DNA from: a virus
Strand: one strand, 5' to 3'
IMG/VR virus record: IMGVR_UViG_3300025770_001704
Span: 1 to 44,622 of that record
DNA length: 44,622 bases
In this document: piece after piece, positions 5,325 to 39,086 of the stretch
How positions within the stretch are numbered: position 1 is the stretch's first letter
How the letters are laid out: each line of letters begins with the position of its first letter
Notes under the pieces: generated by a model
The model's input: only the letters and a program-made list of their open reading frames with translations
Told to the model about the DNA's origin: nothing
Database searches by the model: none
Position numbers and translations under genes: made by a program

Positions 5325-5906
5325 ATGACTCATATTATAAATCCCAAACTAACGCATCGTCAAAAGCATACAGTTATAGGCACAATTCTGGGTGGTTCCT
5401 CTATAATCCAACCATCTGGTGGTGTTAATAGCTATCTTTCTATGCGAAGTAAGGACTCAGAATGGCTTCAGCATAAATCGAATGAATTGAATTGCTTGTC
5501 TTCTAATAAGCCTTTTACCATTGAAAAAACTAACAGATGGCACTCTTTGTGTTATCCTCTCTTTAATGAATACAGAGATATATTTTACAAAGACGGGAAA
5601 AGAGAAATTACGAAAAATATTCTTGAGAGCCTATATCTTTCAGATTTAACGTTTTCGATATGGTGCATTGATTCGTGGAGATATGATAGAGGAAGATTTG
5701 TTATGAATACTCACGTTTGGGGAGAAAGTGGGACTTTGGAAGTGGTTGATTATTTAAAACTTTTGGATATGAAATCAGAAATTATAACTGATCGAGGTAG
5801 ATTTCGTATCAAACTTAAACAAAAGTCAACTAGAGAGATGATGAAAATAGTGTCTCCCCATATTCCATATTTTTACACCATCAGAGACAACACGCCATTT
5901 AGATGA
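5325..5906 (+). CDS. LAGLIDADG homing endonuclease (free-standing)
   Basis: 193 residues, the size of a two-motif LAGLIDADG enzyme. First motif helix: HTVIGTILGGSSI (about 15-27). Second: LTFSIWCIDSWR (about 110-121), with the acidic D of each motif position at the C-terminal end of the helix replaced by G in the first and D in the second. Between them are segments typical of the LAGLIDADG_2 family (WLQHKSNELNCL, YRDIFYKDGKREI). Such enzymes cut a long recognition site and copy their own gene into it. Start ATG has no SD; GATAAATA lies nine bases upstream. It stands alone on the plus strand among minus-strand genes, as expected for mobile cargo. The degenerate first motif could mean reduced activity. 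Confidence 0.8.
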   Translation: MTHIINPKLTHRQKHTVIGTILGGSSIIQPSGGVNSYLSMRSKDSEWLQHKSNELNCLSSNKPFTIEKTNRWHSLCYPLFNEYRDIFYKDGKREITKNILESLYLSDLTFSIWCIDSWRYDRGRFVMNTHVWGESGTLEVVDYLKLLDMKSEIITDRGRFRIKLKQKSTREMMKIVSPHIPYFYTIRDNTPFR

Positions 5907-8034: not shown

Positions 8035-9573
8035 CTATTTAGTCTTGCTAGATTTATTTCTGCAAGCCTTGCATCTGGTTGCCTTCCCATCAGATTTATG
8101 TTTGTCGTTACCAAATTTTTCAAGCGGTAACACGCCCTTGCATTCGTTGCATTGTTTTTTACCTTCTGATGCATAAGGATTGACTTTCTTCTTTTTGGGC
8201 TTAGAACCAGCTAGATGTCCTCCGTATCGCTCACAGATGTATTCGCCGTTTCTTTTGATGTTCTTCTCATAGGTGAGACGAAGAGGCTCATGGGTCTCAT
8301 TGCAGAATTCACAAAAGACTTCTACCTTGTCTTGAGCAATGTGCTTGTGGTAATGTTTGTTGGCTCGCCTTCTGTTGTTCTCTTTTTGTTTTTCAATCCA
8401 TGTAGTGTCTCCTGTTTTTTCTGCAATGAATCTTTTTGCCCAATTGATGATAGTTTTTTCACCTTTGAGTCCAGAATTCTCTTCTGTCCAAACCTCAAAT
8501 TCCCATCCATTTTCTTCAGCATGCTTAATAGAATCAGATATTTGTTTCACCACCTCTGGTTCATTTAATCTTCTTTGTGGTTTAACTTCTAAAATTATTG
8601 TTTTATCTTTATAGTTTACTTTTATGTCTGGACTTCTCCATCTGTTTTCTTCATTTTTAAAAGAATCCACACGGCTGAAACTTAGAACTTTATCATTTTG
8701 TTCTAGCAAATACAGACATCTAAGTTCATACGAAGAACCATAATATATTTCTTTTTTATTTTTATTTGATTTAAAATATCCTCTAATATGTGAGTGCTTA
8801 AACAAACCCTGTGAATGCTGGTCTGCACACTGTTTGGATCGTTCTTCTCTCCATGTTCTCTTTTTCGAATCAAGCAGATAGGTCCATCTTTTTTTTCCTC
8901 GATCCCAAATTCTTTCAAGTCCTCTTTGCTTGGCCCATTCGTATTCGGTTAAACCGCTTGGACATTTTACTGAAGATTTCTTTTGGCTCTGTTTGCTGTA
9001 TCTTGAAGAAGGATTGTTTATGTCAACATAACTGTAATCTGGTCTATAATTTTTTTCTATTGAAAATCCTAGTTTTTCATAGGTGCTTCCTGTAGTTAAT
9101 CGATTATCACTAAAGCTTATTATTTCATCATATCTTTTATCTTTACTCCATTGCACGCATTTTTTAAACAACTTACTTGAACCGCCAACGACATATGCTC
9201 CTTTCTTAAAACAAAGTCGGTCGAGCACAATTCTGTTTTGTGAAATTTGACGACTGTGTCGTCCAAGAGATACAATTCCTAACAATTCGTCATCTTTAAA
9301 TATCCCAAAATAAACCAGAGATAGCTTGTTGGTTCCTTGGATGTGATATTCTTTTAAAAACTCTCTAGCAAGGTGTTTGCTCACCTCCTTAATGATGCAC
9401 TTGCGAGCATAAATTCTTCTTTCATGTTTTCTATTGGCACCATCTATAAAATTCTGACATTGGGATCGTCTGTTTTCCCACTCATCTGAAAACAAAATAA
9501 TGTCAGCATCTGGCAAGTCTTTTGTGTTAAGGTTTTCAGGGTCTTTTATATCTAAAATAATTGTATTTTTCAT
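8035..9573 (-). CDS. Composite free-standing homing endonuclease: GNAT-like domain, PD-(D/E)XK nuclease, zinc fingers
   Basis: 512 residues from the ATG at 9573 (GGAG six bases upstream; the TTG at 9585 is less likely). Residues about 50-185 form a GNAT-like domain seen in phage endonucleases (VYFGIFKDDELLGIVSLGR, YVVGGSSKLFKKCV, STYEKLGFSIEKNYRPDYSY). Residues about 275-375 are a nuclease of the VSR/TnsA-like PD-(D/E)XK type: GSSYELRCLYLL, WRSPDIKV and TIILEVKPQ supply the E, D and E-x-K residues. The C-terminus has two zinc-finger-like parts (VFCEFCNETHEP, then CNECKGVLPLEKF...CKACRNK). This layout resembles F-type homing endonucleases of phages T5 and T4 relatives. It lies directly downstream of the major capsid gene and its terminator, a typical insertion next to a conserved gene. 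Confidence 0.82.
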   Translation of the reverse strand: MKNTIILDIKDPENLNTKDLPDADIILFSDEWENRRSQCQNFIDGANRKHERRIYARKCIIKEVSKHLAREFLKEYHIQGTNKLSLVYFGIFKDDELLGIVSLGRHSRQISQNRIVLDRLCFKKGAYVVGGSSKLFKKCVQWSKDKRYDEIISFSDNRLTTGSTYEKLGFSIEKNYRPDYSYVDINNPSSRYSKQSQKKSSVKCPSGLTEYEWAKQRGLERIWDRGKKRWTYLLDSKKRTWREERSKQCADQHSQGLFKHSHIRGYFKSNKNKKEIYYGSSYELRCLYLLEQNDKVLSFSRVDSFKNEENRWRSPDIKVNYKDKTIILEVKPQRRLNEPEVVKQISDSIKHAEENGWEFEVWTEENSGLKGEKTIINWAKRFIAEKTGDTTWIEKQKENNRRRANKHYHKHIAQDKVEVFCEFCNETHEPLRLTYEKNIKRNGEYICERYGGHLAGSKPKKKKVNPYASEGKKQCNECKGVLPLEKFGNDKHKSDGKATRCKACRNKSSKTK

Positions 9574-9641
9574 ATCGCTCTCCAAAGAAGGTGCTACTTT
9601 AACTTAGTTAGGAAGCCTTTGAAAGGGCAAATAAAAACAAA

Positions 9642-14697: not shown

Positions 14698-15039
14698 ATG
14701 AAAACATGGAGAGAATACGAAGATCAAAGATCGAAGCAAGAGAGCAATGCTTCGAATGCAGGACAAGAAGCATTGGGAAATATATCATTAGACGGCAGAG
14801 GAGAAGATGCTTTATCTGTTATGTATAGGTTGGTAAACCTCGCTTGGGAAAACCATCGGAAAGAAACAAAATCTTTTTTCAACAAGCTTTCGAAAAAAGA
14901 TCCTTATATACAACAAGAGTGGGAAAAAATAGAGAAAGAAGCCGCACGTTTCGCAGGCTCAGGCTCAGATGCTGATGATGTAGTTATGATTCCAAACGCT
15001 GATAGTGGGAATGGCGACGATGAAGGAGGGGATGATTAA
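14698..15039 (+). CDS. Acidic hypothetical protein, convergent with portal gene
   Basis: 113 residues on the plus strand inside the minus-strand head module. A helical basic/acidic N-terminal part (MKTWREYEDQ, then LVNLAWENHRKETKSFFNKL at about 51-70) is followed by an acidic tail (GSGSDADD...GNGDDEGGDD). Its stop overlaps the portal stop by three bases. A 162-base gap lies upstream with several TATA-like sequences (GTATATAGTGTTAG at 14584, CTATAAT at 14624) and a possible 23-codon leader ORF at 14629 whose TGA overlaps this ATG. The start MKTWREYED resembles short proteins of T4-like phages that begin MKTFxxW. Function unknown. Confidence 0.65.
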   Translation: MKTWREYEDQRSKQESNASNAGQEALGNISLDGRGEDALSVMYRLVNLAWENHRKETKSFFNKLSKKDPYIQQEWEKIEKEAARFAGSGSDADDVVMIPNADSGNGDDEGGDD

Positions 15040-17573
15040 TATCTCTCCATGCTATAATCTCTCTCTTCCTTATCTTGTTCCTTAGCGTATGACTTTATTT
15101 CTAGACCATATTTTTTAATATCTTCTTTGTCAGGTTCTGGGAGCAACTCCTCTCCACCTTCTGGTGGTGGCATCTCTCCCTCTGGTGGCATTTGTTCTCC
15201 ACCTTCTGGTGGCATTTGTTCTCCACCTTCTGGTGGCATCTCTCCCTCTGGTGGCATCCCCTCTGGTCCGATCATTGGATTTGGACCGCCAGCTTCTGCT
15301 CCCATTTCTGTTTCGTTTTCGCCAGGAGCACCTACTCCCAACAAGGATGGATTTTGAGCTACAACCTGAAGCTTCAAATCCTCTAATTTTTGAAGCTTCA
15401 TTCTTGCCAACATTGTCTTCGCCTCTTCTTTGCCATACTTCATCCATTTTGTAAGTATATCAAAGTCGGACATTAACATTGAACCTTTTAAACCGTTCGC
15501 ATTATTTATTCTATTAGTCACAACCTCTGCTTGAGATAATTCTTTCCAAGCAGAAGGAGGAGTCATTTTTATAACTAGATCTTCATAAGACTCTTCGCTA
15601 AAACCTCGCAGTCTTAAGTGACGATCTGCTATTTCCCAAAGTCCGTCTTCTATACTTGATTGCAATCTCTCAATCATTCTTGCAAATTTAACATCTTGAG
15701 CAGAAAGTGTAATTCTTGTAGCTTGAGGGTCTTCATTGTTAAAATAATTTTTAGGAAAGTTCAATGCAGTAAATAATTTGTTTCTAAAATAAACAGCATC
15801 ATCTATTTCCCCTAAATTCTGAGCACCTGGAAGGGTGTCGATCCTGGTGTTTGAATTTGGTCTAATCGGTAACCAATAATCTTCATCGGCAGCAGGAGCG
15901 TGCCATCTTTCTTCTACAGCATTTGCTCCGCTTCCGCCTGCTTTCCTGGTGGCGACTTTCTTTTTTCTAAATTGATCTTTAACTCTATCCATGAAAGCTT
16001 CAGCTTTAAACGGAGGGAGTTGACCAACATCTATATAAAAAACTCTTCTTTCGGGTGCTCTTGTCAATCTATAAACTAGCATCGCATCTTCCATCAATCT
16101 TAATTGATGAGCAGGTCCACGGGCTGGTTCTATCAGACTTTGACCATAAGGGTAGAAGGTTTTTCTATCGTCCCCAATTTTAATGTGAACAACTTGGTTT
16201 GGAGCAAATCTGATTGCAGTGGCTTGTTGCACGTCAGCATCTGTAGCTTGTGCAACTGGTGCTCTTGTTAGGGATTGATAATCTGGACCTTCGGCAGACT
16301 GTTGAAACTCTACAAGCTTTCCTTTAGTTGTTTCAATTCTATACATCGAATCTGGAGGCAATTCTTGAACTGCCAATATTCCATCCGATGGGTCTTGAGG
16401 ATTCATCACACACTCTAGGAATGTGTCCCCAAATATGTATAACTTTTTAGACATGGGCCACATTCTTCTGTCCATGTTCAGCATTCTTCGATGAAAGAAT
16501 AAAAAATCTAACTCTTCTTTAACATGGTGGTTGTCAACTTGAATGTCAAAAACATGCTCGTGTTCATTTTTTTGACAATTATGAAATATGACTGATTCCC
16601 CACAAAAGTTTTCATGATCTCTGACAGATAGATCATATACTTCGATCTCTTTGTGCGGAGATACTCCAATAACTCTTCTAGCCTTTGACCTTTTGCCTAA
16701 TACTTTGAGTTCTTTTGAATTAAAGCCTTCGTTTTTCAACCATTGATCAATAGTAGGCCAGTGAGTTCCCATCATGTCAGCAGTTTTTCTGACAGATATT
16801 CCACTAGACAATATTCTGCATGCCTTGTTAACTCTTTCTAGGTCTTCATTTTTTTCGCCAGTTCTCCACTCATCGATGAATTGTCTTTCATGCACCCATC
16901 CGTGCGTGTTTGTATACACTCTTGGAAATTGTTTAGTTTTCAAACTGTTTAATTCAGAGTTTGCCCTCACTCTGTGGAACGGCATTAATTCGTCGCCAGA
17001 TTTTAAAGATTCTGCGAAGTCCCATTTGCCACTCTTCAAAAGAACACGGTGGTCGGGAGTCGAGATAAAGGATGTTCCATCGTCTAATTTGACTTTTATT
17101 GTCATAGATTTTTTGACAACTCTTGGATTATAGGCCCAGCCTAGTGAGTAATCATTTTTTTCAAAATCCCAACAGTAGACTAAGAATTCCTCATCTTTTT
17201 TATTTTCTGCCAACCACTTGATGGTCTTATGTCCATCATATAGCGTAGATATTTTCGTATCTCCAGACAAGCAAGTTTCATCTGCCAAGACTGTCATAAC
17301 AGATTCTATTTCTGCTACGTTTCTTAATCTTTCATATTCTTTGTACCTGCTTTGCCTGTTTGAAACGGTAGACAGGTCAATCATGTCGCCTGTTTCACGC
17401 AGGCGCACCATCCCCTTTCCGCCTCCCCAATAACTGCCGTCTTGGCGTATATTCGGAATGGCTTCAGGAAGAGTGTGGCCAGCACCTGTTAATTCGCTTT
17501 TACTACTCAGTTTAGTTTGAGGATCATCCTCAAAACTATATGTCCAAAGTTTATAGAAATCCCACCAGGCCAT
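15036..17573 (-). CDS. gp20: Portal vertex protein, T4 gp20 family, interrupted by an intein
   Basis: 845 residues as encoded; about 613 after removal of the 232-residue intein at 101-332, close to T4 gp20 (524) plus a long tail. The portal forms the dodecamer through which DNA enters the head. Extein landmarks: MAWWDFYKLW start, SRYKEYERLRNVAEIESV (75-92), then after the intein VKEELDFLFFHRRMLNMDRRM-type block, LYIFGDTFLECVM, and APERRVFYIDVGQLPPFKA, all typical of T4-like portals. The last 100 residues are Pro/Glu/Gly repeats (PPEGGEQM and PPEGEM) followed by a charged tail. SD GAGG before ATG and an exact TATAAATA box 20 bases upstream. First gene of the 20-(557 aa)-21-22-23 late run. Confidence 0.95.
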   Translation of the reverse strand: MAWWDFYKLWTYSFEDDPQTKLSSKSELTGAGHTLPEAIPNIRQDGSYWGGGKGMVRLRETGDMIDLSTVSNRQSRYKEYERLRNVAEIESVMTVLADETCLSGDTKISTLYDGHKTIKWLAENKKDEEFLVYCWDFEKNDYSLGWAYNPRVVKKSMTIKVKLDDGTSFISTPDHRVLLKSGKWDFAESLKSGDELMPFHRVRANSELNSLKTKQFPRVYTNTHGWVHERQFIDEWRTGEKNEDLERVNKACRILSSGISVRKTADMMGTHWPTIDQWLKNEGFNSKELKVLGKRSKARRVIGVSPHKEIEVYDLSVRDHENFCGESVIFHNCQKNEHEHVFDIQVDNHHVKEELDFLFFHRRMLNMDRRMWPMSKKLYIFGDTFLECVMNPQDPSDGILAVQELPPDSMYRIETTKGKLVEFQQSAEGPDYQSLTRAPVAQATDADVQQATAIRFAPNQVVHIKIGDDRKTFYPYGQSLIEPARGPAHQLRLMEDAMLVYRLTRAPERRVFYIDVGQLPPFKAEAFMDRVKDQFRKKKVATRKAGGSGANAVEERWHAPAADEDYWLPIRPNSNTRIDTLPGAQNLGEIDDAVYFRNKLFTALNFPKNYFNNEDPQATRITLSAQDVKFARMIERLQSSIEDGLWEIADRHLRLRGFSEESYEDLVIKMTPPSAWKELSQAEVVTNRINNANGLKGSMLMSDFDILTKWMKYGKEEAKTMLARMKLQKLEDLKLQVVAQNPSLLGVGAPGENETEMGAEAGGPNPMIGPEGMPPEGEMPPEGGEQMPPEGGEQMPPEGEMPPPEGGEELLPEPDKEDIKKYGLEIKSYAKEQDKEERDYSMERY
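15144..15262. repeat. Tandem Pro-Glu-Gly coding repeats in the portal gene
   Basis: Near-identical 24-base units (CCACCTTCTGGTGGCATTTG plus TTCT on the plus strand) and shorter relatives encode PPEGGEQM and PPEGEM near the portal C-terminus. The high identity suggests expansion by slippage or recombination. Confidence 0.8.
16578..17273 (-). other. Intein in the portal gene (232 residues)
   Basis: Protein residues 101-332 of the portal precursor. Block A: CLSGDTKIST (Cys1 nucleophile at 17271-17273). Block B: GTSFISTPDHRVLLKSGKW with the T-x-x-H-type His. Block F: EVYDLSVRDHENFC. Block G: VIFHN followed by Cys+1, so the penultimate His, terminal Asn and Cys +1 extein residue needed for class 1 splicing are all there. 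Splicing would join ...LADET to CQKNEHEH... The 80 residues between B and F hold FPRVYTNTHGWVHERQFIDE, which looks like the start of an HNH-type or related endonuclease domain with missing residues, and a helix-turn-helix (ISVRKTADMMGTHWPTIDQW). The homing domain is probably degenerate, so this is a mini-intein-like element with DNA-binding remnants. Confidence 0.93.
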
Positions 17574-17600: not shown

Positions 17601-17636
17601 ATTTAGCAATGGTTGTCAAATTACTCTTATATAGTT

Positions 17637-18227
17637 ATGAAAAATGTTGTTTTTATTGTCAGTCACTTACATTCAGGGTCCGATGCTTTGATTCAGACCC
17701 TGAATGAAAACCCCAGAGTTCAAATACAGAGTACTAAATTAGCGTACAATCATCCAGACGTTTTGAGAAATTTGTTCTCTTTAGGTCATAAATTAGATAA
17801 TTCTTCGGCTGTTTTTGGAGACCACATTTTATTCAATACAGATTTAAGTTCAAGTACATTTTATGACTTTGCTAAATTTATCTATGTTATTAGAGATGGA
17901 AGAGGAACTTTAGAAGACATTTTATTTGATAAAAATTTAAATTATGATCAGAACCAGGCTGAATTATACTATTCGTACAGACTAAGAAGAATGTATGAAA
18001 TGGCATCTAAGACTCCAAATTCCATTTTTTTAAACTACAAACAGATGTATCAAAAGAGAAATTTAGAACTGATAGGAAATTATTTGAATCTAAAAGAACC
18101 TCTTAAGTATAAAGAGTTAAAGCGTCCCAATTTCGAAATTCCTCTGAGTCAGACAGAAGGATGCCAAGAGATTTTTGAAAAATATCTCTATAAGTTTAAA
18201 AAATTAGAATTGAAAGGCAGCAATTGA
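17637..18227 (+). CDS. Sulfotransferase-like protein
   Basis: 196 residues from the ATG at 17637. The N-terminal strand-loop-helix VVFIVSHLHSGSDALIQTLN (3-22) matches the 5'-phosphosulfate loop of PAPS-dependent sulfotransferases, and FIYVIRDGRGTLEDIL (about 85-100) matches the 3'-phosphate motif (VVRDPRD-like). The family moves sulfate from PAPS to a hydroxyl of a sugar or protein; the loop Lys/Arg seen in many members is replaced here by His, so activity is uncertain. The start has no SD, only TTATATAGTT just before ATG. It overlaps the oxygenase gene by four bases. The pair forms a plus-strand insert between terminase and portal. Confidence 0.72.
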   Translation: MKNVVFIVSHLHSGSDALIQTLNENPRVQIQSTKLAYNHPDVLRNLFSLGHKLDNSSAVFGDHILFNTDLSSSTFYDFAKFIYVIRDGRGTLEDILFDKNLNYDQNQAELYYSYRLRRMYEMASKTPNSIFLNYKQMYQKRNLELIGNYLNLKEPLKYKELKRPNFEIPLSQTEGCQEIFEKYLYKFKKLELKGSN

Positions 18228-18889
18228 GAAAACTAGGCTTAAACAATTGTGCAATTTATGACGAAGTTTTGTCGCAAGAAGATTTTGCATCTCTTTGGAA
18301 GTGGGTTCAAGAAGACAACTACACTGGCGCACATTCTAATGAATGGCTTAAAGTTTGGCGTTTGAGCGACAGCCCTCCCATGGGAGGAACGTCGTTCTAT
18401 TTAAGCAAGGCACCGTTCAGCAATCCCATAGACAAATTATTGCCAAAAGTTCTCCAAATGGCAGAAGACAGTCGGGACATGATTGGGAAAAGAGGAGAAA
18501 AGTGGAACGAGATAAGTATTAAATCATACATTTACCCAAGAGGCACAAAACTTTCCTGGCACAACGACTCAGGGTATGAAGCTGCGTGTATATTCTACAC
18601 CCACCCAAAATGGTCTTCTTCATGGGGAGGTGAGTTGTTTATAGCAGAGACGGATAAAAATTTTGAAAAAGAATGTTTTGAAGAAAAATTAAAAATAGGA
18701 CCTCTTGAAAAAGAATATGTTGATGCAATCCTTGAAGACAAAGGAGTGGGAAGATATGTTCATTCAAAACCCAACCGTGCAGTGCTTACGCCTGCTCCGA
18801 TCTGGCACACGGTGAATAGAGTAGATGCAGACGCAGGTGATAATTGCAGATGTTCAATAGTTTTCTTTTTTAAAAAAATTAAGTCTTAA
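18224..18889 (+). CDS. 2-oxoglutarate/Fe(II)-dependent oxygenase
   Basis: 221 residues, a prolyl-hydroxylase-like double-stranded beta-helix. Iron ligands: H and D of SWHNDSGYEAACIFY (about 113-127) and the distal H of PIWHTVNRVD (about 196-205). The R of NCRCSIVFFF (about 211-220) should bind 2-oxoglutarate. GGELFI (about 138-143) is also typical. It hydroxylates a protein side chain or other small substrate; target unknown. The start is TTG, overlapping the stop of the sulfotransferase gene (TTGA), with AAAGGC as SD. T4-like cyanophages often carry members of this family. It is coupled to the sulfotransferase-like gene, and the two may act on one acceptor. Confidence 0.87.
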   Translation: MRKLGLNNCAIYDEVLSQEDFASLWKWVQEDNYTGAHSNEWLKVWRLSDSPPMGGTSFYLSKAPFSNPIDKLLPKVLQMAEDSRDMIGKRGEKWNEISIKSYIYPRGTKLSWHNDSGYEAACIFYTHPKWSSSWGGELFIAETDKNFEKECFEEKLKIGPLEKEYVDAILEDKGVGRYVHSKPNRAVLTPAPIWHTVNRVDADAGDNCRCSIVFFFKKIKS

Positions 18890-22072: not shown

Positions 22073-23185
22073 ATGATGAATAAAAAATATATAATTTTTT
22101 GCTTGATTGTAATGATTTCAAGCGTTGTTGTTTTGAAAAATAATTTCATTACAAACAAGCCCGTTGACCCTATAGTTCCAATCGGCCCTATAGTTCCCAT
22201 TGATCCCGATCCAGACTTAACTTTGACCGAAGCTCTAGAGACCATCACAGAAGAAGAATGCGAAGAGTATGTGTTCAAACTTGCAGACGATAAGTGGGAA
22301 GGACGTATGTCTGGCAAGGCTGGAAACGTCGCCGCAGCCGAATGGATAAAACAATATCATGAAAGTAATGGTTTAAAGACTGAATATCAAAGATTTGACA
22401 TTAGACGCTTGAATCCAGGTCCTAACAATGAAACGGGTGACAATTATACACAAAATATATTTGCTTGGATCGAAGGCGAAAATCCCAATGAAATTGTTGT
22501 GCTAGGTGCTCACATGGATCACATTGGATACGGTCCTTCAATGTCCAGATCAAGGACGATGGCAATTCATCCAGGCGCAGATGACAATGCGAGCGGAACT
22601 GCTGTAATCATGGAAATTGCAGAAGCCCTTTCAAAGATGGAAAAACCTAAGAGAACTATTGTGATACAGCACTACTCTGGCGAAGAAATGGGATTAATTG
22701 GAAGTCGATATTACTGTGCTAATCCAACTTTTCCTAGAGAAAATCCAAACATAAGAAGTCATGTTGCGATGGTTAACTTAGATATGGTGGGATACTTAGA
22801 TAAAGGTGTATATTTCACAGGATGGGGCGATGGAGAAAGTTCTATAGACGTTAAAAATATAATTAAAAAATTAAATGAAAAATATATTTTTGCAAATAAA
22901 ATCACAAGTCGTGGAGGAGGCGGAAGCGATCATGCTCCATTCTATAACAATAAAATTCCTGTGGCGTTTTTGCACACAGGAGGCCATAAACATTATCACA
23001 CTCCTTCTGATACTCCCGATAAATTGAATTATGCCGGAATGAAGCAGGTTTCAAAGTATACGTTGGAATTAGTTTGGGAACTTGCAAATATCGAAAATAA
23101 GCCAAAATTCAATATTGCAAACTTTAAAACTATGAATTATAAACATGACCACGGAAATCCTGAAGTTAAATTTGAAAGGGAATAA
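22073..23185 (+). CDS. Exported M28-family zinc aminopeptidase
   Basis: 370 residues. N-terminal hydrophobic segment (7-22) is a signal peptide or membrane anchor, followed by a Pro/Ile/Asp linker (PVDPIVPIGPIVPIDPDPD, two imperfect copies). The M28 domain shows all metal and catalytic residues: GAHMDHIG (about 149-156), HPGADDNASGTA (about 168-179), YSGEEMGLIGS (about 206-216), NLDMVGY (about 239-245) and HYHTPSDT (about 306-313). It removes N-terminal residues from peptides in the periplasm or outside the cell. Two ATG codons in a row start the frame; there is no SD, and translation may be coupled to the upstream transferase. Four bases separate it from the ferritin-like gene. Confidence 0.92.
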   Translation: MMNKKYIIFCLIVMISSVVVLKNNFITNKPVDPIVPIGPIVPIDPDPDLTLTEALETITEEECEEYVFKLADDKWEGRMSGKAGNVAAAEWIKQYHESNGLKTEYQRFDIRRLNPGPNNETGDNYTQNIFAWIEGENPNEIVVLGAHMDHIGYGPSMSRSRTMAIHPGADDNASGTAVIMEIAEALSKMEKPKRTIVIQHYSGEEMGLIGSRYYCANPTFPRENPNIRSHVAMVNLDMVGYLDKGVYFTGWGDGESSIDVKNIIKKLNEKYIFANKITSRGGGGSDHAPFYNNKIPVAFLHTGGHKHYHTPSDTPDKLNYAGMKQVSKYTLELVWELANIENKPKFNIANFKTMNYKHDHGNPEVKFERE

Positions 23186-26852: not shown

Positions 26853-27347
26853 TTATTCTTTCAAAGTTGATGTGCAAAATGGGCACTTGCTTGCTTTGTA
26901 GTGTATCTCTTCTTGACACTCTGGGCAAGATATGGTTTGAATGCATCTTATTTTTACATCTTCTTTCAATAAAGGAAACATGACTTTCCTGTAAACGACA
27001 TACAAAATAATAGAAATTAGCACAAAGTCTAAGAAAGAGCCAGCGAATTGACCTAGTTCAAAAGTCATTCCTTCAAGAGGGGAAAGACTGTAATCCCTCC
27101 AGTCTTCGCCAGTTTTCCCAACGACATAATTCACCATTGGCATGATCAAATTTTGGGAAATAGAACTTACAACCTTTTGAAATGCCGCTCCAAGTATGAA
27201 GGCAATCGCCATTTCGATCATTCTGCCTTTGAATGCGAACTTCTTCCACTGCTTTAGTTCTTCTTCTCCAACGACGTGCTCGATACCATCTTCGATGGTA
27301 TCTTTCGCTTTTTTTATGTTAGCTCTATTTATAAATTCTTTTTTCAT
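26853..27347 (-). CDS. mscL: Large-conductance mechanosensitive channel MscL with zinc ribbon
   Basis: 164 residues from the ATG at 27347. Opens a wide pore in the inner membrane under tension. TM1: FKGRMIEMAIAFILGAAFQK and VVSSISQNLIMP (39-70), the family signature with the Gly/Ala-lined pore; loop 72-98; TM2: LDFVLISIILYVVYRKVM (106-123). The C-terminus is a zinc ribbon, CPEC...CPFC (C141, C144, C155, C158), as in some cyanobacterial and other MscL proteins, instead of the E. coli helical bundle. The N-terminus is about 25 residues longer than E. coli MscL and charged. A TATAAATA sequence lies just inside the reading frame (27326-27333). Weak SD (TTGGTAA). A phage-borne MscL could protect against osmotic stress or help lysis; both are inference. 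Confidence 0.93.
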   Translation of the reverse strand: MKKEFINRANIKKAKDTIEDGIEHVVGEEELKQWKKFAFKGRMIEMAIAFILGAAFQKVVSSISQNLIMPMVNYVVGKTGEDWRDYSLSPLEGMTFELGQFAGSFLDFVLISIILYVVYRKVMFPLLKEDVKIRCIQTISCPECQEEIHYKASKCPFCTSTLKE

Positions 27348-27394
27348 ATTATTACCAAATACATACTCATGAATATCTATCCAAGGAGTCTGCA

Positions 27395-28843
27395 ATGTTT
27401 GATTATATTAAATCAATGTTTTCTAGAGAGGTTGGTGCTTTATCTGCAAATCAACTTTGGTATCCGTTTAATGATCCAACTACACCAAGTTTAGGTTCTT
27501 TAATTAGTCCAAAAATTCCACCTAAAAAACTAAACTTTCAAGTGTTTGGGTATAAAAAAGGAAATTTCAAAAAAGGATCAAAAGACCATCAGGCATCTTG
27601 CTGTGTTGAAACAATGTGCAGAACGGTTGAACTCTCACAAAGAAATATTAAAAGCTTTAGAAAGCCTCTTGACAAATGGGCAGCAACTAAAAGTTTGATT
27701 GTCAAGCCAAGAGCGGGAAATGATTTCAATGCTTGGTATGATCGCAAGAGTTTGAGCTTTTTCTACGATCAGGATTCTAAAACTAAGAAAATGATTTTTA
27801 CCGCTGACTCTGTGGATATAATTGCACATGAGGCTGGCCATGCCATTTTGGATGCAATGAGGCCGGACTTTTGGAGCGTACCTGCTTTGGAAATTTGGTC
27901 ATTCCATGAAGCCTTCGCAGACATAATTGCTATACTCACATTAATGGAATCAGATGAAGTTTTAGAACATGCGTTGAAAGAGACAGATGGAGATCTGGGA
28001 AAAGACAATGTTATAAGTAAGTTGGCGGAAGAAATGGGCAGTGCTATATTCAACCTTACAGGCGGTAAAGGCGGATATAGTCATGCATACCTAAGAAAAG
28101 CAAATAACACATTTAAATATCAAGATCCTAGAAACCTTCCAAAACAAGCACCAAACAATAAGCTTGCCGCTGAGTGTCATTCGTTTGGAAGAGTTTTCTT
28201 AGGAGTGTGGTATGAAATTATGGTTAGAATTTTTAACCATCTTAAACAAAACAAATCAGATATTGAATCTTTAAAAGAAGCTAGAGATGTAATGAGTCTT
28301 TATTTATTTAAGGCAATTCCAAGAACCCCTAGAACCTCAAAATACTACCAAGCAATAGCTAAATCAATGATGGACGTGGATCGCCAAGCTGGTAGTCCGT
28401 ATGGAAAAATAATGAGAAAGGTCTTTGAAGGAAGAAAAATACTTACACAAGAAGTTAAAATGTTATCAAAAGATAATGAAGGTCTAAATTGGAAAGATTT
28501 CAAAAAAGGAGTCGAGCCAGAAGATAATGTTTTCAAACATAAAGATGGACTTACTTATATTTCCAAGTCAAATCACGTTGTAAAATTAAGCGACTATGTA
28601 GTTAGCGGTTTGTCTGGCGACAATCCTTTGTTTGATGTAGAGATTGAATTAGCTCAAGATGGTTTGTATGAATTTGATAAATCTGGAAACTTAATTGAGG
28701 AAATAGTTCCAAATGGAACAGAGGCAATGGATGATGCTGTATTTTGTCTAAATGTAATACAAGATGAAAACTTAATAAACAAAGCTTGGGATAGTATGTG
28801 GGAAGTGAAATCAGGCAAATTAGAAAGAATATACATGCAATGA
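27395..28843 (+). CDS. Thermolysin-like (M4-type) zinc metallopeptidase without signal peptide
   Basis: 482 residues. Zinc site HEAGH (145-149) and the third ligand in HEAFAD (171-176), spaced like M4 peptidases (HExxH then ExxxD about 25 later). Upstream NAWYDRKSLSFFYDQD (112-127) matches the strand that precedes the HExxH helix in thermolysin, and CHSFGRVFLGVWYEI (about 260-274) sits where M4 enzymes have their catalytic His region. The C-terminal 130 residues are an extra strand-rich domain. Unlike secreted M4 enzymes there is no signal peptide or propeptide, so it should act in the host cytoplasm or be carried by the virion. Strong SD (AAGGAG) before ATG. Translation overlaps the next gene (ATGA). 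Confidence 0.85.
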   Translation: MFDYIKSMFSREVGALSANQLWYPFNDPTTPSLGSLISPKIPPKKLNFQVFGYKKGNFKKGSKDHQASCCVETMCRTVELSQRNIKSFRKPLDKWAATKSLIVKPRAGNDFNAWYDRKSLSFFYDQDSKTKKMIFTADSVDIIAHEAGHAILDAMRPDFWSVPALEIWSFHEAFADIIAILTLMESDEVLEHALKETDGDLGKDNVISKLAEEMGSAIFNLTGGKGGYSHAYLRKANNTFKYQDPRNLPKQAPNNKLAAECHSFGRVFLGVWYEIMVRIFNHLKQNKSDIESLKEARDVMSLYLFKAIPRTPRTSKYYQAIAKSMMDVDRQAGSPYGKIMRKVFEGRKILTQEVKMLSKDNEGLNWKDFKKGVEPEDNVFKHKDGLTYISKSNHVVKLSDYVVSGLSGDNPLFDVEIELAQDGLYEFDKSGNLIEEIVPNGTEAMDDAVFCLNVIQDENLINKAWDSMWEVKSGKLERIYMQ

Positions 28844-34655: not shown

Positions 34656-35066
34656 ATGAAACATTTAGAGAGATTTGTTGGAAAAGTATGCACGGTTTTT
34701 ACTGTAGGCATCAATAGAGATTTCAAACAAGAAAATCCAAAAACATATCCAAAGCCTTTGTATGTTTATTTTATGGGTGCTATAGAATTTGTGAACGAAC
34801 ATGGAATCATGATGCAACAAGTGACAACTGGTTTGTCCACTTTTGTCTTCATGAATAATGTCGTAAGCATTTCTGAGGAAGAAGTCCTAGACCCAGAGAA
34901 CGAAAACGATGCTGAAATGATCAAAAAATATAAAGAAGACGCCGAACAGATCAAAAAACAATATAGCACTCAAGGAAAAGATGATGCTCAAGCCGAATCT
35001 TCTGAATATTTAAATGTAGATTCCATGAGTGACTTATCTGACATGATACAGAAAGATATAAAATGA
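34656..35066 (+). CDS. Hypothetical protein coupled to glpX
   Basis: 136 residues. The first 80 residues look like a small beta barrel: VGKVCTVFTVGIN, KPLYVYFMGAIEFVNEHGIM and STFVFMNNVVSISEEEVL. The remainder is acidic, helical and disordered (MIKKYKEDAEQIKKQY). The ATG has no SD, only TTTATATC before it. Its stop overlaps the glpX start (ATGA), so the two are translated together. Could be a nucleic-acid-binding or regulator protein; function unknown. Confidence 0.7.
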   Translation: MKHLERFVGKVCTVFTVGINRDFKQENPKTYPKPLYVYFMGAIEFVNEHGIMMQQVTTGLSTFVFMNNVVSISEEEVLDPENENDAEMIKKYKEDAEQIKKQYSTQGKDDAQAESSEYLNVDSMSDLSDMIQKDIK

Positions 35067-36013
35067 AAAACCATCACTTAGATATAATAAGGGCGACAGA
35101 GGCAGCGGCAATATCTGCTGCCGAATGGGTTGGTCGAGGCAATAAAGAGTTAGCAGACAAAGCTGCAACCGATGCAATGCGTTCAAGATTGAACGATATA
35201 GATTTTCGTGCGCAAATAGCTATAGGCGAAGGAATCAAAGATGGTTCTTTCGGGCTTTTTGAAGGAGATCTGGTCGGAGCCGCATATGGGGATTGTCCCT
35301 CTGATGCGGAATATGATATTGCAGTCGATCCGATTGAGGGAACAACCCCCACGGCTAAAGGTGGGTACGAAGCAATGGCCGTTCTTGCTATGGGGAATGT
35401 AGGATCACTGTACAAAACAGATGTTTTTTACATGGACAAGATTGCCGTGGGTCCCAAGGTGGCAGCAAAGGCTCAGATTGACCTCAAAAACCCTGCAAGT
35501 GCAAATGTTGGGATGGTTGCTGCTGCTTTGGGGAAATCGCCAGAGCATGTTACCGTATGTGTTCTAGACCGAGAAAGAACAAAGCCACTTGTTGGAGAAC
35601 TGAGGAAAATAGGTTGCCGGATCAAGTTTATTAGTGACTGCGATGTGACGGCCTGTATTGCCACCTGTGTGCCCGATAGCGGGATTGATATGTATTGGAG
35701 CATCGGTGGAGCACCAGAGGCTGTGATAGCCGCCTCAGCGATGAAATGCATGGGAGGTTTCCTGCAATGTAGGGAAGTCGAGGAGTCAGTACAAAAATGT
35801 GGTGATTTTCAAGGAATTTTGACACATGCATCTGATTCGATGCATATAAATGACCTCGCTGAAGGCGAGGTCATGTTTGCTGCCACTGGGATTACGGATG
35901 GGAAATTCTTGAAAGGCGTTAGATTTACATCCAATGGCCCAGTCACTAGCTCAGTATCTATGAGATCAGAAAGCGGGACAGTCAGATGGTTGACGACAGA
36001 ACACGGAAATTAA
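35063..36013 (+). CDS. glpX: Class II fructose-1,6-bisphosphatase (GlpX)
   Basis: 316 residues, full length for GlpX. It removes the 1-phosphate of fructose 1,6-bisphosphate (often also of sedoheptulose 1,7-bisphosphate) in gluconeogenesis and pentose cycles, in the cytoplasm with Mg or Mn. Motifs: AIGEGIKDG (53-61, E56), YDIAVDPIEGTTPTAKGG (84-101, the D-P-I-E-G-T metal and phosphate motif), YMDKIAVGP (about 123-131), VCVLDRERTK, SIGGAPEAVIAA (about 213-224) and GVRFTSNGPVTSSV. No key residue missing. The gene is visibly richer in G+C than its neighbours, suggesting recent acquisition from a cell. Coupled to the upstream gene by ATGA. Confidence 0.93.
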   Translation: MKNHHLDIIRATEAAAISAAEWVGRGNKELADKAATDAMRSRLNDIDFRAQIAIGEGIKDGSFGLFEGDLVGAAYGDCPSDAEYDIAVDPIEGTTPTAKGGYEAMAVLAMGNVGSLYKTDVFYMDKIAVGPKVAAKAQIDLKNPASANVGMVAAALGKSPEHVTVCVLDRERTKPLVGELRKIGCRIKFISDCDVTACIATCVPDSGIDMYWSIGGAPEAVIAASAMKCMGGFLQCREVEESVQKCGDFQGILTHASDSMHINDLAEGEVMFAATGITDGKFLKGVRFTSNGPVTSSVSMRSESGTVRWLTTEHGN

Positions 36014-38069: not shown

Positions 38070-39086
38070 CTAACCTTGTGCAGCTTCTGCTGCCACAAGG
38101 CATCCTCGTGCTACTGAATAAAGGGGGTCGCTAGGCCGAATAACCTCCCCAATATCAATGCCTATATTTGATGACTTAAGCACATCACTAAACATAGTAT
38201 CAAATCCAGGCGGAGAACTTGTTCCACCTGCAATTACAATGTCAATCGGATGATCAGCACGAGCACTTTTGCCCGCTTCTTCAATGCCGTTCTTGATTCC
38301 TGTAACTGTCTTTTGAATCATGATTTCATACTGTGCCTTGATAGCTCTTTGAACTAGCAAGTCTGAATCTTCATTTAAATCTACTTTCATTTTTTCTTTA
38401 TTGATATAAGTAGGACTTTCGCCTGTTGCCCTAGCTGCCATTTTGTCGATCCAGTCTCCACTATTAACGAGAGCGAATTCAAAAATTGGAGCACCATAGA
38501 TTGCAAAGCAAAGATTTACCATGCCTGCGCCGAACGAAATTCCAATTCCAGTATATGCTGTCTTTTTCAGTTCAGCATATACTAGTGCCAATGCTTCATT
38601 AATTGGGTGAGCTTCAACAACTTTTCCTGTTTCATCTTCAAACGCATTGAATACAGCTTCTAAAACTTTTGAGTGGTAATCTGCATCTGTATCTTGATTA
38701 ATAGCATTTGCGGGCACACTGTAATAGAGTTGCTGCTTATCTTCGTCGAGTTCGTCAAGAAGACTGTGCATCATTATACTCATGATTTGTTGAGCATACT
38801 TTTCTTTTGGATTCAAGCAGCCATCTTTCATTGGTCGCTTTAGTTCAATGTCGTTCATTGTGTATGCGATATCTACAGCGGCTTCTCCTAAAGCGTAGGC
38901 AATCCCTGCCTCAGTTCTTTCAATTAGAGGAACGCCTGCGTTCTTCATCATGTTGAACACAAATCTATTTTCTAAAGGCATTTCAATGAATGCATTTACC
39001 TCTCTTTTATGCGAGAAGTCTTTGTTTTCGTCTCTTCTGCAACAAACAAGGTTGTATGTCCCACAATCAAATCCTAATCCTGCCAT
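38070..39086 (-). CDS. Actin-like ATPase (ParM/MreB/Hsp70-fold superfamily)
   Basis: 338 residues, size of ParM or MreB. Phosphate-1: LGFDCGTYNLVCCRRDE (4-20). Connect-1-like helix with HPINEALALVYAEL (about 160-173). Phosphate-2: YTGIGISFGAGMVNLCFAIY (about 178-197). Adenosine motif: DIVIAGGTSSPPGFDTMF (about 283-300). Proteins of this type polymerise with ATP and segregate plasmids, shape cells or position cargo. The region between is not close to MreB or ParM in sequence, so it is probably a separate phage or bacterial branch. It follows directly after an 85-residue gene, the arrangement expected for a filament and its adaptor. It could move phage DNA or capsids, or act on the host cytoskeleton. 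Confidence 0.88.
   Translation of the reverse strand: MAGLGFDCGTYNLVCCRRDENKDFSHKREVNAFIEMPLENRFVFNMMKNAGVPLIERTEAGIAYALGEAAVDIAYTMNDIELKRPMKDGCLNPKEKYAQQIMSIMMHSLLDELDEDKQQLYYSVPANAINQDTDADYHSKVLEAVFNAFEDETGKVVEAHPINEALALVYAELKKTAYTGIGISFGAGMVNLCFAIYGAPIFEFALVNSGDWIDKMAARATGESPTYINKEKMKVDLNEDSDLLVQRAIKAQYEIMIQKTVTGIKNGIEEAGKSARADHPIDIVIAGGTSSPPGFDTMFSDVLKSSNIGIDIGEVIRPSDPLYSVARGCLVAAEAAQG

Follow-up and report, generated by a model that had tools for sequence, protein, structure and literature searches.

A class 1 intein in the T4-like portal protein of an uncultured large-phage clade and free-standing copies lacking its splicing residues in one lineage

The window analyzed here, a 44,622-nucleotide stretch of viral DNA (IMG/VR record IMGVR_UViG_3300025770_001704), encodes the precursor of a T4-like (gp20) portal protein on its minus strand (15036–17573; phrog_213). 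The Pfam family Portal_T4 (PF07230) matches residues 347–725 of the 845-amino acid ORF with an E-value of 7e-73, and the gene order around the portal is T4-like, with terL, the prohead protease, and gp23 alongside. The precursor, also read from the minus strand in each of its parts, comprises an N-extein (17274–17573; residues 1–100) that ends in ...TVLADET, a class 1 intein of 232 amino acids (16578–17273) that begins with cysteine and ends with HN, and a C-extein (15039–16577) whose first residue is the nucleophile C333 (CQKNEHEH...). Predicted splicing would leave a portal protein of 613 amino acids. We refer to this insertion point as site a. Two further intein sites of the portal, site b (16064–16065, minus strand, between L503 and T504) and site c (15821–15822, minus strand, after A584), are unoccupied in the window. 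Near the portal C-terminus (15100–15360, minus strand), a run of PPEGGEQM/PPEGEM repeats gives rise to long spurious ORFs on both strands.

The N-terminal Hint half of the intein (16962–17273, minus strand; intein residues 1–104) contains block A (CLSGDT) and block B (TPDH at 72–75), while the C-terminal Hint part (16578–16685, minus strand; residues 197–232) contains block F (VYDLSVRDHENF) and block G (VIFHN). The central insert that separates them (16686–16961, minus strand; residues 105–196) consists of a β-hairpin, a helix, and helix-turn-helix (HTH)-like helices, and has no endonuclease motif. The GWVHERQFIDEW motif (16866–16901, minus strand; residues 125–136) is the most conserved stretch of the insert, as it is in the free-standing copies described below. 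The HTH-like helices (16731–16847, minus strand; residues 143–181) give weak HTH matches only.

Several other genes in the window deserve mention. A sulfotransferase-like gene (a weak match) and a 2OG-Fe(II) oxygenase gene lie between terL and the portal gene on the opposite strand (17613–18889, plus). A 516-amino acid protein (8035–9585, minus) combines a part resembling the DNA modification protein Mom with a TnsA-like endonuclease part, and an actin-like protein (38070–39086, minus) matches Volactin (Pfam PF25216). The window also carries a phage-borne homolog of the mechanosensitive channel MscL (26853–27395, minus) as well as homologs of M28-family peptidases (22073–23185, plus) and GlpX-type fructose-1,6-bisphosphatases (35063–36013, plus), both of which are unusual phage cargo.

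The 232-residue segment is a class 1 intein, and chance is excluded as the source of its features. The NCBIfam model intein_Nterm starts at residue 101 of the precursor and intein_Cterm ends at residue 333, both above their cut-offs; these ends define the intein as C101–N332 with C333 at position +1, which corresponds exactly to 16578–17273. Pfam Intein_splicing (PF14890) matches residues 113–332 with 45 bits (cut-off 35.8). The splice junctions read ...LADET/C...HN/CQKN, and the class 1 set is complete (C101, T172-P-D-H175, VYDLSV, H331-N332, and C333). AlphaFold2, supplied with a 43-sequence alignment whose members all match PF14890 (43/43), predicts a Hint fold for the intein with a pLDDT of 95.8 and a pTM of 0.90. 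The top PDB matches of this model in Foldseek are all mini-inteins (Ssp/Npu DnaB, Npu/Ssp DnaE, and Mtu RecA), with E-values from 1e-8 to 1e-6 and TM-scores on the target of 0.74–0.85. These results agree with the original prediction of an intein with these ends and class 1 residues in a T4-like portal. The full residue set, together with the fold, leads us to infer that the precursor is spliced in cis.

The original prediction also proposed a search of related phages for an intein-free allele, and such alleles were found. The 232 residues are absent at the exact joint in the outgroup contigs L101–L106, whose portals are ~35% identical and whose sequence runs continuously across the joint (for example, ...ADDA/TQTH...), and in contigs L209 and L410. 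It had been suggested that an alignment in which the 232 residues are conserved as a portal domain would speak against an intein. Within the clade they are indeed conserved in that manner, so that such a test would misfire; the outgroups, L209, and L410 show that they can be removed. We rejected the possibility that these residues form a portal domain on the basis of these empty sites and the Hint fold.

The site a intein was found in at least 153 distinct portal ORFs from an uncultured clade of large phages in IMG/VR, which encode at least 143 distinct inteins 228–237 amino acids in length. C1, T72, H75, D214, H231, and N232 are each present at a frequency of 1.00 in 143 aligned rows. A whole-portal search returned 79 relatives, and all those in which the site was covered in an unbroken frame had the intein. 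Because some search patterns were derived from the intein, the search was repeated from the C-extein alone (once with an alignment and once with the window sequence) and later from the L209 portal. Each search comprised the best 80 matches, so that some intein-free alleles may have escaped notice, a few at most; only ORFs reaching across site a were counted. Five contigs that appeared intein-free (L182, L196, L348, L385, and L394) were excluded because they start inside or after the intein, as was L075, in which the portal lies in several frames, probably through sequencing error. Among the matches listed, the one exception to clade-wide occupancy of site a is the lineage formed by L209 and L410. 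A DNA-pattern search for the empty junction returned the L209 contig and chance matches and missed L410. The intein is present in the 595-kb phage LR756511. A search of 84,980 bacterial and archaeal genomes for relatives of the intein yielded just one phage contig, binned with a Neisseriaceae metagenome-assembled genome, and one unrelated archaeal intein. L314 (RXKI01000042.1), which is filed as a Neisseriaceae metagenome-assembled genome, looks like a phage contig of the clade and has inteins at sites a and b.

The site a intein looks vertically inherited, since its tree is concordant with that of the extein and site a is saturated within the clade. Trees of 62 matched sequences have 37 of 59 splits in common, compared with a chance expectation of 0.2. 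Each of the 15 intein splits with SH-aLRT support of at least 95 recurs in the extein tree with zero conflict; at a laxer cut-off of 80, nine splits conflict. We found no evidence of homing at site a in these comparisons, and its distribution is neither sporadic nor horizontal, as that of a homing intein would be.

Purifying selection acts on the intein as a whole. Across 24 independent, moderately diverged pairs, dN/dS was 0.154 for the N-terminal Hint half, 0.209 for the insert, and 0.154 for the C-terminal Hint part; the exteins of the same pairs gave 0.077–0.136. The value of 0.209 points to looser constraint on the insert than elsewhere in the intein, yet clearly not to decay. The GWxHERQFxxxWxxG motif of the insert has a column entropy of 0.91, lower than the ~1.4 of the splicing domain. 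The original prediction regarded this region as a degenerate endonuclease, a description at odds with its near-constant length and clear purifying selection.

Other sites in the same gene show the look of mobile, patchy inteins, and site a is unlike them. Site b (YRL/TRAPERR) is occupied in 18 of 141 portals (including those of L314, L050, L056–L064, and L097–L100) by inteins of ~395–430 amino acids with LAGLIDADG motifs and, in L098, by a 262-amino acid form. Mapped on the tree, site b changed seven times and site a once. Site c (LPGA/S/QNLGE, with S or Q after the joint) is occupied in L078, L080, and L278 by inteins of the HNH type or with HNH remnants; the L078 intein, which is of the HNH type, ends with CN rather than HN, and the intein in L080 is shortened and ends with KN.

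The site a intein resembles neither a homing intein, which would have a LAGLIDADG, HNH, or other endonuclease domain, nor a Hint-only mini-intein with a short linker, as it has a constrained, folded insert of ~92 amino acids. The expectation of an HTH-like insert held up, and Pfam, NCBIfam, and PHROGs scans found no endonuclease family in it. Sequence searches with the insert gave nothing convincing; a fold search of the PDB with the insert alone gave weak matches to LuxR/NarL-type HTH domains (E-value 0.1). By eye, GWxHERQF is similar to GWTELHHMVW in the dCTP deaminase intein of an Aphanizomenon phage and to WxFTHRxV in site c inteins. An HNH endonuclease remnant was considered on this likeness and set aside, as hhalign gave no support for homology of the insert to HNH inteins. 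HTH accessory domains occur in endonuclease inteins such as TliVMA and PI-TkoII (PMC8966425). The insert is probably the DNA-contacting accessory part of a homing endonuclease that has otherwise been lost.

The intein-free portals of L209 (IMGVR_UViG_3300032884_000230) and L410 (IMGVR_UViG_3300033977_000105), two incomplete contigs from different metagenomes, are precise: the sequence reads ...YADEA/CQIGEN..., with the +1 cysteine kept. Both contigs encode a free-standing copy of the intein as an intact ORF of 235–236 amino acids (L209, 1333–2040; L410, 2998–3708) in the order terL, a small ORF, a gene resembling 2H-phosphoesterases (assigned by eye), the free intein, an oppositely oriented sulfotransferase-like gene, and the portal gene. 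As in the window, a sulfotransferase-like gene is found between terL and the portal gene in these contigs, and in L314 one lies beside the portal gene. Neither copy has exteins. The L209 copy consists of methionine, intein residues 1–232, and a stop codon, with C1S, T72N, and D214T substitutions and a changed final histidine. The L410 copy has no C1, carries H75Q and D214S, and ends with FNCLNK in place of FHN-C. With C1, the block F aspartate, and the terminal HN context lost, both copies are without residues needed for splicing. The GW..E.Q..W pattern is kept despite this loss.

L209 and L410 cluster as a single clade (support 99) within a six-member group, the remaining members of which have their inteins in the portal. 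This nesting among intein-bearing portals points to one derived event with two survivors. The free copies are ~55% identical (dN 0.34, dS 0.78, ratio 0.44), and between the two contigs pN/pS is 0.57 for the free copy, ~0.2 for terL or the portal gene, and 0.32–0.46 for adjoining accessory genes. The free copy is therefore under weaker constraint than terL and the portal gene and somewhat weaker constraint than adjoining accessory genes. Its hairpin region retains 79% identity at a pS of 0.34, with a stretch near KQFPRIYTHTHGWKxERQFIDEWRT that is almost identical between the copies. The HTH part, at 38% identity, is the least conserved, so the feature being preserved may be one other than the HTH. 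When an ORF of the free copy's composition was drifted neutrally to 70% identity in simulation, a mean of 7.4 stops accumulated, and none of 200 runs ended with zero stops. The end branches of L209 and L410 are ~0.5 in the intein tree and 0.06 in the portal tree; fast evolution of the free copies fits release from the constraint of splicing.

These observations suggest a model, to which we assign a probability of roughly 55%, in which a class 1 cis-splicing intein without an endonuclease reached fixation in the portal gene of an ancestral phage, from which a clade of large T4-like phages descends, and was inherited vertically thereafter. As judged from residues and fold, splicing would start with an acyl shift at C101, continue with transfer of the N-extein onto C333, and finish with cyclization of N332 aided by H331. 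The products would be the 613-amino acid portal and the free 232-amino acid intein in equal numbers. The excised intein would be useful beyond splicing, most likely through contacts of its hairpin-helix-HTH domain with DNA or protein. In one lineage, the portal lost the intein while the protein survives, incapable of splicing, as its own gene by the portal. The comparisons establish the intein, its vertical fixation, selection along its entire length, and the freed, constrained copy, whereas splicing, the origin of the insert, and the second role are inferred. The second role is proposed because this lineage keeps the splice-dead protein as its own gene; the single relocation event, the two incomplete contigs, and the fast evolution of the free copies count against it, and the weak HTH matches in sequence and fold (E-value 0.1) count against a role of the HTH. 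A farther-reaching version, in which the intein has been domesticated so that a non-splicing function explains its retention in all portals of the clade, while one lineage has turned it into an independent splice-dead gene beside an intein-free portal, is plausible, though we place it somewhat short of even odds.

The main rival explanation, which we consider less likely, is that this is an ordinary fixed mini-intein whose endonuclease was lost after fixation and which is kept because precise deletion is rare. The insert would then be retained only because the splicing fold needs it, and the free ORFs would be transient leftovers. Homing-cycle theory speaks for such a history, as does the known dependence of splicing on the endonuclease domain (HINT-HEN), which is discussed in PMC8966425; the near-constant length and constraint of the insert fit a scaffold role, and the free copies evolve ~three times faster relative to their own portals than in-place inteins do. 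This explanation does not account for two ORFs that remain intact at ~55% identity and a dN/dS of ~0.44, nor for a 25-residue hairpin motif that stays nearly invariant after loss of the splicing residues.

T4-like head formation begins with portal assembly, and the intein interrupts the conserved N-terminal part of the protein. Splicing might thus limit or time the supply of assembly-competent portal and so explain fixation; conditional splicing has precedents elsewhere among inteins, according to work cited in PMC7156551. We regard such a switch as unlikely: no sensor feature was found in the intein, and the intein-free portals of L209 and L410 stand beside intact terL genes, which indicates that cis-splicing is dispensable at least there. 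Least probable by far is an intein that still homes by relying on a free-standing homing endonuclease to act in trans, as the original prediction had suggested. In favor of this reading, the window contains one gene of the kind mentioned in that prediction, a LAGLIDADG_2 homing endonuclease (5325–5906, plus). This gene lies ~10.7 kb away with no evidence linking it to site a, the clade is already saturated for the intein at that site, and the intein and portal trees show no strongly supported conflict.

Inteins are commonly regarded as selfish passengers, but some may be retained because they benefit their hosts. A single intein here combines clade-wide fixation, selection on an insert outside the splicing domain, and a naturally occurring uncoupling of splicing from the other parts of the protein; the sporadic LAGLIDADG intein at site b of this portal gene serves as an internal control. 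Whether inteins persist by helping their hosts becomes a testable question in this system.

Portal inteins had been described as rare in the original prediction. They have been reported in cluster C1 mycobacteriophages, with six instances in one cluster (PMC5050341), and are near-universal in the present clade. Both are insertions into phage portals, a likeness at the level of the host protein; the present intein differs in residing in a T4-like gp20, in having no endonuclease, and in being fixed across a broad clade. Terminase inteins have been documented in T4-like and Rak2-like phages (PMC3868846, PMC5259590). In the open-access literature, we found no report of a T4-like portal intein, of a portal intein fixed throughout a clade, or of a free-standing derivative that is splice-dead, and nothing on free-standing or exapted inteins.

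Despite only ~14% identity, the mini-inteins of Ssp/Npu DnaB, Npu DnaE, and Mtu RecA (PDB 6frg, 4o1r, 4kl5, 3ifj) share the Hint fold of the portal intein; they are ~140 amino acids in length and lack the ~92-amino acid hairpin-helix-HTH insert. TliVMA and PI-TkoII (PMC8966425) likewise have an HTH-like accessory domain, but they retain a LAGLIDADG domain, whereas the portal intein has no endonuclease; the likeness lies in the presence of an HTH-like domain. The N-terminal splicing half aligns with HNH phage inteins (SP15_022 of Bacillus phage SP-15, which is the top viral fold match, and the site c inteins of L078 and L080) at 36% identity and an hhalign probability of 98.9, but these inteins bear an HNH block that the site a intein does not. 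The best NCBIfam match, RtcB_rel_intein2 (NF052663), covers all 232 amino acids over a model stretch of equal length (E-value 1e-14), with an RtcB-like protein as host instead of a portal. The site a intein as such therefore belongs to a known kind, portal inteins being known already, and the lineage in which it has been freed is the new part.
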